In this document: one piece after another, positions 26,389 through 28,254 of the stretch
Position numbering within the stretch: the stretch's first letter is position 1
How the letters are laid out: each line of letters opens with the position of its first letter
DNA from: Saprospiraceae bacterium
GTDB lineage: Bacteria; Bacteroidota; Bacteroidia; Chitinophagales; Saprospiraceae
Direction: 5' to 3'
Length of the DNA stretch: 34,804 nucleotides
NCBI GenBank assembly: GCA_020631105.1
Contig: JAHDHW010000002.1
Coordinates: forward strand, 1 to 34,804
Position numbers and translations under genes: made by a program
The notes under the pieces: model-generated
What the model was told of the DNA's origin: nothing
The model's input: only the letters and a program-made list of their open reading frames with translations
Database searches by the model: none

Positions 26389-27426
26389 ATGGCAAAAAAT
26401 AAAGTACTCGTCACGGGCGGTTGTGGTTACATTGGAAGTCACACCATCGTAGATTTAATTGATAATGGCTTTGACGTAGTCTCTGTAGATAACTTAGGGA
26501 ACTCATACGAATCCGTAATGGATCAAATAGAAGCTATTACCGGAAGAAAAATTCAAAATTACGCGATTGATCTCTGTAACCTTGAGGATACCAAACAAAT
26601 TTTTGAGGATCATCCTGATATTGGTGGTGTGATTCATTTTGCAGCTTTGAAAAGTGTCGGAGAATCCGTCAATCAACCACTCCGTTATTTTAAGAACAAT
26701 CTCAATTCCTTACTGAACATTCTTGAATGTTGTCGGGATTATGGAGCAAATAGCTTTATCTTTTCAAGTAGTTGTTCGGTCTACGGAAATGCAAAGGAAT
26801 TGCCGGTGACCGAAGAAACCTTATTCGAAGAAGCAGAAAGCCCTTATGCAAGAACCAAACAGATAGGGGAGAAGATAACGATGGACTTCGCAGTGAATAA
26901 CCCTCAGGTGTCTTCCATTATGCTTCGATATTTTAACCCTGCCGGAGCGCACGAATCAAATCTTATCGGAGAACAACCAAAACAGATTGCGCTAAATCTG
27001 GTACCGGTAATCACCGAGACCGCTTCAGGACTAAGAGATCATATGATGGTTTTTGGAGATGATTATGATACGAGAGATGGGAGCTGCGTTCGTGATTATA
27101 TCCATGTAATGGATATTGCGAATGCGCATACAAAAGCGATTCAGTATTTGTTTGCGGAAAAGAACGATAAAAACTACGAAGTTTTCAACTTGGGGATTGG
27201 TGAAGGCGTCAGCGTTTTTGAAGCAATTAATGCTTTTGAGAAGGTGACCGGAGAATCTTTAAACTACAAAGTGGCTCCACGTAGAGAAGGAGATGTTATC
27301 GCAATTTATGCGAATAATGATAAGGCTAAACATAAACTCGGGTGGAATCCGAATCGTGGAATTGAAGACATTATGAAAACAGCCTGGGACTGGCAAGTAA
27401 AGCAGAATACATTGGCTAAAAGTTGA
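26389..27426 (+). CDS. galE: UDP-glucose 4-epimerase GalE
   Basis: 345 residues. Short-chain dehydrogenase-fold enzyme that interconverts UDP-glucose and UDP-galactose with bound NAD. The nucleotide loop is G10-G-C-G13-Y-I-G16 and the catalytic pair is Y153-x3-K157 (SPYARTK), with the SSSCSVYG serine region before it. HFAALKSVGESV, RYFNPAGAHES, VRDYIHVMDIANAH and a C-terminal GWNPNRGIEDI motif are those of GalE rather than other epimerases. Length matches the E. coli enzyme (338) closely. It provides galactose donors, which suits the glycosyltransferase genes across the divergent promoter. The gene is followed by a 234-bp gap that contains a probable small RNA gene. Confidence 0.97.
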   Translation: MAKNKVLVTGGCGYIGSHTIVDLIDNGFDVVSVDNLGNSYESVMDQIEAITGRKIQNYAIDLCNLEDTKQIFEDHPDIGGVIHFAALKSVGESVNQPLRYFKNNLNSLLNILECCRDYGANSFIFSSSCSVYGNAKELPVTEETLFEEAESPYARTKQIGEKITMDFAVNNPQVSSIMLRYFNPAGAHESNLIGEQPKQIALNLVPVITETASGLRDHMMVFGDDYDTRDGSCVRDYIHVMDIANAHTKAIQYLFAEKNDKNYEVFNLGIGEGVSVFEAINAFEKVTGESLNYKVAPRREGDVIAIYANNDKAKHKLGWNPNRGIEDIMKTAWDWQVKQNTLAKS

Positions 27427-27493
27427 TTTTGCTTAGCAAAAGGTATGAAAGCGGACCTGAACGGTAAGATTTTGTCCATAACAAGGTGTTATC

Positions 27494-27524
27494 TTGGCTG
27501 CCCTGCTTTTTTTTTGCATCTTTG
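27494..27524 (+). promoter_or_regulatory. Probable promoter of the candidate ncRNA
   Basis: TTG at 27494-27496 and CATCTTTG at 27517-27524 (one mismatch to TAnnTTTG) are 20 nt apart, the normal spacing of Bacteroidota promoters. It would start RNA near 27530. A run of nine T lies in the spacer, so part of it might instead be the tail of the galE transcript. Confidence 0.5.
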
Positions 27525-27530
27525 GTAAAC

Positions 27531-27644
27531 GGTCTCAGGTGGCCGAAAACAAACAATCTATGGGTAAAAGTTCGATGAGAACAGTCATAGGGTGTCCATA
27601 GTCTTGTTACCTTGTCGAGCCTACTCTCTCGACAAGGTTTTTTT
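27531..27644 (+). ncRNA. Candidate small structured RNA of about 110 nt (6S-like?)
   Basis: No reading frame of note covers this stretch, yet it has a promoter-like site just upstream and ends in a strong terminator. The body folds on paper into one long hairpin: 27552-27556 with 27604-27608 (AACAA/TTGTT), a small internal loop, then 27558-27563 with 27596-27601 (CTATGG/CCATAG), enclosing a GTTC/GAAC hairpin (27570-27582). CATAG at 27586-27590 competes for the same partner, so two folds are possible. A long rod with internal loops of this size would suit a 6S-type RNA, but I cannot confirm the family. It lacks the GGAAG-type apical loop of signal recognition particle RNA and is not a tRNA. 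Confidence 0.5.
27609..27644 (+). terminator. Intrinsic terminator of the candidate ncRNA
   Basis: An 11-bp perfect stem (27609-27619 with 27628-27638, ACCTTGTCGAG) with an 8-nt loop, followed on plus by seven T (27638-27644). There is no T run on the minus strand, so it serves the plus-strand transcript, 180 nt beyond the galE stop. Confidence 0.92.
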
Positions 27645-27660
27645 ATGACAAAGGGAATAA

Positions 27661-28254
27661 TTATTTTACTTTGGTTAAAACTGCCCGCTGATAACCACCT
27701 ATTGGGAAAGTACTGACAGCAGGAATATCTTCTCCTTGATACTTTTGATCTCCGGTAATACTGACAGGCTCTGAGCTTCCAAAAATAATTTCAAAAATGA
27801 TTTTATCTCCCCTCTTTTCATAAATGCTTAGAATTTGGCTGCCCATAACTTCATACCAGCAAAGCAATTTGTTGCCGTATAAATAAGATTCAAGAAGGAT
27901 ACTGTTTTTCTCATCAATTCGATATTGACCTTTATCGGTATCTATAAGCTCAAGCTCATAAGGACGACGTCCAGTTTCTTTGTCTTCACCATAGATGATT
28001 GCCCAGGTAAAGTTTGCGGAACTGTCCATCTGGGCAAGCTCCAATTCCATTGGTACATTCTGAACGACCTTATTGTCTTTAAATATTTTTAATGTTCCTT
28101 CCCAATCGCCTAACCAAGATTGCGGAAAAGGCAGACTGTCTGTCAGGGTGGCTTGCTCTGGTCTTGAAGGTAGATTAGTAGATTTTTTTTCATTTGACTC
28201 AGAACAAGCTGATAAAATGAAGCAAATCCAGCAAAAAATCGTAAAACGTTTCAT
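27661..28254 (-). CDS. Hypothetical lipoprotein
   Basis: 197 residues. The lipoprotein signal peptide (MKRFTIFCWICFILSA/C17) is followed by a Ser/Asn/Lys-rich tether and one compact beta-rich domain (about 45-197). That domain begins WLGDWEGTLKIFKD and holds PMELELAQM, WAIIYGED and YELELIDTDKGQYRIDE strands, a pattern that resembles lipocalin/calycin-like barrels, often seen in small Bacteroidota lipoproteins. I recognise no named family or catalytic motif. It diverges from the M1 peptidase gene (114-bp gap with a perfect palindrome) and converges on the ncRNA candidate. Confidence 0.8.
   Translation of the reverse strand: MKRFTIFCWICFILSACSESNEKKSTNLPSRPEQATLTDSLPFPQSWLGDWEGTLKIFKDNKVVQNVPMELELAQMDSSANFTWAIIYGEDKETGRRPYELELIDTDKGQYRIDEKNSILLESYLYGNKLLCWYEVMGSQILSIYEKRGDKIIFEIIFGSSEPVSITGDQKYQGEDIPAVSTFPIGGYQRAVLTKVK

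Follow-up and report, generated by a model that had tools for sequence, protein, structure and literature searches.

A predicted RNA gene between galE and a convergent lipoprotein gene

Does the gap behind the galE-like gene of this Saprospiraceae contig hold an RNA gene of its own, and of what kind is it? In the window, i.e. the whole stretch of 34,804 nucleotides analysed here, the gap is bounded by the galE-like gene (26389-27426, plus strand; Pfam Epimerase family) and by a convergent lipoprotein-like gene (27661-28254, minus strand). A preliminary description had placed an orphan RNA gene there, with a promoter box and a terminator of its own. This is supported by the conservation of the locus, its several gene contexts and the covariation of its terminator. 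The sequence shows a conserved locus that has a terminator of its own and a -7 box, lacks a coding frame and keeps a constant 14-nt motif. This motif, AGUCAUAGGGUGUC, lies directly before the terminator, and it is the constant part of the RNA, rather than the rod into which the window RNA can be folded.

A putative -33-like TTG (27494-27496, plus strand) stands 20 nt ahead of the -7 box CATCTTTG (27517-27524, plus strand), both where they had been described. The box resembles TAnnTTTG, the Bacteroidota-type -7 consensus given in PMC7366714. Judged by the distance to this box, the 5′ end would fall at about 27530-27532, and together with the terminator the box predicts a long-form RNA of about 115 nt (27530-27644, plus strand). 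The RNA would begin with a small hairpin, CGGTC/GGCCG (27530-27545, plus strand), which appears in the folds. The sequence of this hairpin is not conserved among loci, and at L119, where the box ends 5 nt before CTATGG, there is no space for it. About 80 nt of foldable sequence separate the promoter pair from the terminator. The intrinsic terminator (27609-27644, plus strand) comprises an 11-pair stem (27609-27638) and a run of seven T (27638-27644), in agreement with the earlier reading. It was the sole plus-strand terminator-like site that a consensus scan found in 27300-27800. In an alignment fitted to a terminator model, 7 of 10 stem pairs were changed on both sides, which none of 500 shuffles reached; the alignment held 44 distinct sequences, and 99.1% of its cells were paired.

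That the element has no coding frame was confirmed. No plus-strand frame of at least 40 codons overlaps the window RNA; on the minus strand, a frame of 46 aa spans 27416-27556. The conserved frame start is GTG in 45 of the 47 loci read and GTA in two. Frames opened at the conserved GTG stop at scattered lengths, from 5 to 92 codons, and three have no stop within the stretch. On these two grounds, the scattered frame lengths and the missing plus-strand frame in the window, a coding reading was rejected.

Just 5′ of the RNA promoter there is another hairpin (GGTAA/TTATC plus an inner stem, 27463-27493), 13 nt before a run of nine T. It may be a weak terminator of galE; the consensus terminator scan did not list it. 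The lipoprotein-like gene matched no Pfam family, and a segment of it, FPxSWLGxWxGEL, recurs in relatives.

Distribution and gene contexts

Apart from the window itself, a BLAST search of 59 relatives returned clear homologues in four genomes (G001, G002, G003 and G019) and some short matches, one of which (G030) turned out to be real. When up to three mismatches were allowed, a 21-nt core turned up in 13 of 396 genomes of the order, and seven of these were real after the loci had been read. The exact 18-nt core occurred in 14 stretches of the genome contigs scanned, all named Saprospiraceae or Saprospirales, several of them from the same genomes as the relatives already searched. From the names of these 14 records we infer that the family concerned is the Saprospiraceae.

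With a covariance model, R1, built from 16 loci, 46 of the family's 398 genomes reached at least 36 bits; 30 of these had contributed no locus to the model. The margin is thin, since the weakest accepted match scored 36.2 bits and the best rejected one 33.7. At a loose limit R1 lists 200 of the 398 genomes, mostly with weak terminator-like matches, and those below 33 bits were mostly left out of the reading. The refined model R3, made from 45 of the 46 loci plus G462, recovers the same 46 genomes at 54 bits or more, with the next match at 40.6; 45 of the 46 belong to R3 itself. The window RNA (27582-27646) scores 78.6 bits with R1 and 77.0 with R3, being part of both models. Three weaker matches, in G462, G410 and G412, were accepted in view of their sequence and gene neighbours, which brings the total to 49 of 398 genomes and 21 of 112 genera. 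In a sample of the phylum, five of 395 genomes matched R1 at E ≤ 1e-5, and the two real ones were both from the window's family. Weak members may have been missed, because searches over 40 genomes ran with stricter filters. A single degenerate pattern matched nothing in viral contigs.

There is usually one gene per genome: R3 gave one accepted match in each, and the window genome (G000) has one copy. G487 and G555 each had a second match, which was rejected or fell on the identical place. Loci L157-L159, L203, L205 and L206 were rejected for want of the motif, and R3 matches in G379, G633 and G637 were left out of the reading. L123, which is the same place as L156, was dropped from the loci read. 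The counts of promoters, folds, motifs and frames also leave out L154 (33.7 bits, motif missing) and L149 (the place of L156 again, cut by a contig end). The promoter test covered 46 loci, as L155 has only a short upstream stretch.

The frequent upstream neighbour is galE or a gene of the inositol-phosphatase family, and downstream there are lipoprotein and M1 peptidase genes; the protein clusters of these common neighbours have 15, 19, 20 and 29 members. At least four other contexts were seen (L144/L145, L147/L148, L152/L153 and L129/L042). Judging by eye, we take the neighbours in L144/L145, L147/L148 and L152/L153 to be glycolytic genes, a PpiD-like gene, and NadA-like and ComM-like genes. 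Since the RNA occurs in several unrelated neighbourhoods, it is not the leader of one particular gene. Of the features expected of a trans-encoded small RNA, it has a promoter of its own (as far as sequence can tell), its own terminator, no coding capacity and independence from its neighbours.

Two architectures around one motif

The 14-nt motif is near-invariant (AGTCATAGGGTGTC in the window, 27583-27596, plus strand). In alignment A6, which leaves out L135, 11 of its 14 positions are identical in all 46 rows, an upper estimate because the models favour the motif. Its invariance is partly a product of how the loci were found. Diverged forms are AGTCTAGGGCGGTC in G412 and AGTCATAGGGTATT in G410. 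The motif is constant while the remaining RNA and the neighbouring genes vary.

The RNA around the motif has two forms. Among the 47 loci read, 13, including the window, are long: CTATGG or TTATGG is followed by a hairpin, mostly GTTC/GAAC, then by the motif and CCATAG. The other 34 are short, and the CTATGG arm and the GTTC/GAAC hairpin are missing upstream of the motif; two short loci, L117 and L118, retain a weaker 5′ arm. In a tree of 29 neighbouring M1 peptidases, 11 long forms fell within one supported clade of 15 rows, together with four short forms.

The promoter boxes differ in position accordingly. A box matching NATNTTTG, a loosened pattern picked after the loci had been read, lies between 95 and 25 nt ahead of the motif in all 13 long-form loci, the chance being 0.064 per sequence. 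In 21 of 33 short loci, a -7 box with at least five of six matches starts at -17 to -12 from the motif (shuffled sequences: mean 2.8, maximum 8). With a box 12-17 nt before the motif, the short RNA would start near AGUCAUAGGGUGUC and extend for about 60 nt. In 34 of the 47 loci the motif is probably near the 5′ end of an RNA of about 60 nt, with the end itself predicted near the A of AGUCAUAGGG. The 34 short forms were folded from this assumed start. Their 5′ half showed little structure, and the motif was only partly free, with a mean unpaired probability of 0.58 over the 34.

Folds of the long form

All pairing elements of the rod that had been described were read at their positions in the window. 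AACAA (27552-27556) is complementary to TTGTT (27604-27608), CTATGG (27558-27563) to CCATAG (27596-27601) and GTTC (27570-27573) to GAAC (27579-27582), all on the plus strand. In fold A, which consists of CTATGG/CCATAG and the outer stem, the 5′ arm AACAAtCTATGG (27552-27563) pairs with the 3′ arm CCATAGtcTTGTT (27596-27608); fold A came out lowest in energy for 12 of the 13 long forms when folding started 12 nt before CTATGG. The inner hairpin GTTC-loop-GAAC (27570-27582) is present, with varying loop lengths, in most long forms and differs in L036 and L116. The outer stem is AACAA/TTGTT in several loci, AATAT/ATATT in L143 and CAAG/CTTG in L109 and L112, and is lacking in some. The competing CATAG noted earlier (27586-27590) is an alternative partner of CTATG, giving fold B, which in the window differs from fold A by no more than 0.1 kcal/mol. 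CATAG is present twice there, 11 bp apart; the second is altered in the TGTAAT variants.

The thermodynamic evidence is weak beyond the terminator. The fold z-score of 27528-27650, terminator included, was -3.07, compared with -1.69 for the wider 27427-27650 and -1.68 for 27530-27612 without the terminator, where 36 of 500 shuffles folded equally well. The rod by itself is therefore no proof of an RNA, and the real evidence is conservation. In relatives the covariation that had been looked for was found in the terminator stem. For the main stem of the long form, alignment A2 shows changes on one side only and no double change.

The preliminary description also allowed a switch between two folds. 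Both folds can be drawn, and in the window they tie (-30.1 and -30.0 kcal/mol with the 5′ hairpin left out; with it included, the minimum is fold B). Across the 13 long forms, folded from the start given above, A and B were at most 0.7 kcal/mol apart in five, the window among them, while fold A was favoured by at least 1.3 kcal/mol in seven and fold B by 3.6 in one. The tie is therefore not shared by eight of the 13, and the switch is weakly supported.

Relation to 6S RNA

From its size, its rod shape and its standalone expression, the window RNA had been likened to 6S-type RNA, which would mimic an open promoter and bind RNA polymerase. The likeness was not upheld. The window gave no match at the gathering threshold to Rfam 6S families, including 6S-Flavo, and a permissive search of 27400-27680 returned two matches, neither of them 6S. 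The conserved closed rod with an internal bubble that characterizes 6S RNA was not found, as the rod arms are missing in 34 of 47 loci. Moreover, 17 of 41 member genomes (12 of 31 plus 5 of 10) carry a separate 6S-like RNA on another contig, and these include the three congeners of the window. This RNA was identified with model R2, made of three sequences, so that G004, G017 and G030 match by construction. It was found in 11 of the 13 long-form genomes and in five of five family genomes tried that are without the motif RNA. Its identity as 6S is sub-threshold: the two such RNAs scored with Rfam reached 38.0 and 35.1 bits against a cut-off of 85 for RF01685. When RF01685 was run over the 59 relatives, 17 matched at E up to 10, at other loci, and none exceeded the cut-off; the best, at 38.0 bits, was that of G030. 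The family motif was no more similar to the 6S-like RNA than shuffled motifs were (fractions 0.12 to 0.43).

R2 found no 6S-like RNA in the window genome, in G350 or in 22 other members, i.e. in 24 of 41, which may reflect assembly gaps, divergence or absence. The argument is therefore strongest for the long-form clade, and for the window genome it rests on the congeners. Together with the rod-like fold and size of the window RNA, this gap in the survey speaks for a 6S reading, as does the member in G412 described below. Set against the missing Rfam match, the missing arms, the separate RNA and the shuffles, these points leave that reading highly improbable; the window RNA is most probably not 6S RNA. 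6S-Flavo (RF01685), as described in PMC2864571, is alike in the size range of the long form and in its rod-like fold, and differs in sequence, conserved structure and genome position.

The diverged motif of G412 (L202, 2925-2990) shares an identical 11-nt stretch, GTCTAGGGCGG, with the core of the 6S-like RNA in G004 and G030; in the G412 assembly, which is 74% complete, a 6S-like RNA was looked for and not found. A bolder idea would make the motif a UAGGG-rich recognition element common with the 6S core, and the RNA a 60-nt mini-6S or a 6S antagonist, directed at polymerase or sigma factor and switchably enclosed in the window lineage. The G412 identity is the sole direct hint for it, the common form of the motif having no such likeness beyond shuffles, and we regard it as far-fetched. 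Among the divergent 6S-like RNAs themselves (L178-L194), TAGGGCGGGC occurs in 16 of 17 sequences, a chance match (L195) being excluded. A short 6S-like pattern had one exact match in the window genome, rejected because the stretch has no other 6S features.

Proposed mode of action and known relatives in kind

We consider it rather probable that the RNA is a free-standing, trans-acting base-pairing small RNA of the Saprospiraceae, with the motif as its seed for several mRNAs, working without Hfq. In the window it would be transcribed from about 27530 to 27644, and the 14-nt motif would pair in trans with several mRNAs, probably at translation starts. In the short form the seed would be close to a free 5′ end; in the long form of the window the 5′ extension would fold around the seed and may limit access to it. 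An Hfq match was found in none of 10 member genomes at E up to 0.001.

The window RNA matched no Rfam family even at permissive thresholds, and no description of a small RNA in Saprospiraceae was found in the literature searched; we class it as a new family within a known kind of RNA. By analogy, the best reading is that it works like FopS and GibS of Bacteroides. According to PMC11697453, FopS RNAs are about 65-70 nt long, have sigma-ABfr-type promoters and a conserved 5′ seed, and repress mRNAs near the start codon. The Saprospiraceae RNA has the same plan of small size, promoter type and, as proposed for the short form, 5′ seed, whereas FopS has 14 paralogues there and our RNA usually one copy per genome. 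The hosts are likewise without an obvious Hfq, in Bacteroides according to PMC7366714. FopS is likened to our RNA by description, the two real R1 matches in the phylum sample being both from the window's family. We know of no counterpart in FopS or GibS to the 5′-extended long form.

Rfp18 of Flavobacterium psychrophilum is another conserved non-coding RNA of Bacteroidota predicted to pair with several mRNAs. It can be set apart by description, since in PMC9723704 it is strongly structured and its predicted pairing region is in the third stem-loop. To our knowledge, regulatory RNAs have been little studied in Bacteroidota beyond Bacteroides and Flavobacterium. Saprospiraceae are common in wastewater plants, as stated in PMC9304909. 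The family described here is a compact RNA that can be aligned and whose exact motif can be tested in Saprospiraceae. Its two architectures around one motif provide a way to ask how a fold that covers or exposes a seed evolves in an RNA.

Target searches and alternative explanations

The target searches were negative, though weak as tests. Near-perfect complements of the motif were not enriched: 18 lay beyond the RNA genes in 32 genomes, compared with 27 for the reversed pattern. Read individually, the 18 sites had no gene in common; eight carry their mismatch at the third position (GAnACCCTATGACT), where one or two would be expected if mismatches were even, in unrelated places. Start regions of the flanking genes (29, 19, 19, 14 and 10 in the duplex-energy test) on average paired no better with the motif than with shuffled seeds, with mean z-scores between -0.68 and +0.09. 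The lowest single z-scores were -10.06 in the inositol-phosphatase group, which may be explained by overlap with the RNA gene, and -4.05 for galE. Base pairing consequently rests on analogy, and protein binding fits the invariance too. A small RNA that sequesters a protein through the 14-nt motif, with no mRNA pairing, would account for the 11 identical positions in 46 of 46 loci, for the lack of a conserved near-complementary target and for the duplex results. However, protein sponges usually repeat their site, while this RNA has one copy of the motif, and presents it in two differing structural settings. We judge this alternative unlikely.

The remaining explanations tie the RNA to its place in the genome. 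Control of the M1 peptidase gene, or of some other gene downstream, by a leader, attenuator or riboswitch acting in cis might be suspected from the two alternative folds of the window and from six loci (L122, L126, L127, L130, L138 and L150) with an M1 peptidase gene on the same strand within about 100 nt. Such an element should have a same-strand gene directly downstream, but the window RNA is followed by a convergent gene, a strong terminator ends the RNA, and L129, L042, L144, L145, L147, L148, L152 and L153 have unrelated neighbours; we find it quite improbable. We give very little credence to a cis action directed against the message of the convergent lipoprotein gene, a message whose 3′ end may cross the RNA gene. 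The lipoprotein stop codon does lie in or near the terminator at many loci, and in the window no T run follows the hairpin on the other strand, yet the RNA is kept where the gap is too short for a lipoprotein gene (L111, L036, L122, L126, L129, L144 and L152). The doubled CATAG of the window could also suggest an element acting as DNA, an operator or a decoration of the terminator, with no RNA at all. Against it stand the altered second CATAG of the TGTAAT variants, an unchanging orientation and position ahead of the covarying terminator, and a motif that adjoins the promoter box in most short forms and lies tens of nucleotides downstream of it in most long ones; its chances seem slight.

Two complement sites are recorded here in their own right. 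In the window genome (L163, near 795), a sequence nearly complementary to the motif, GAAACCCTATGACT, continues into repeated TAATGAC units. In G225 (L174, near 803), an intergenic sequence, GACACCCTATGTCT, complements the motif at all positions but one; an inverted repeat comes after it on that strand, and this site could be a second RNA that pairs with the first.
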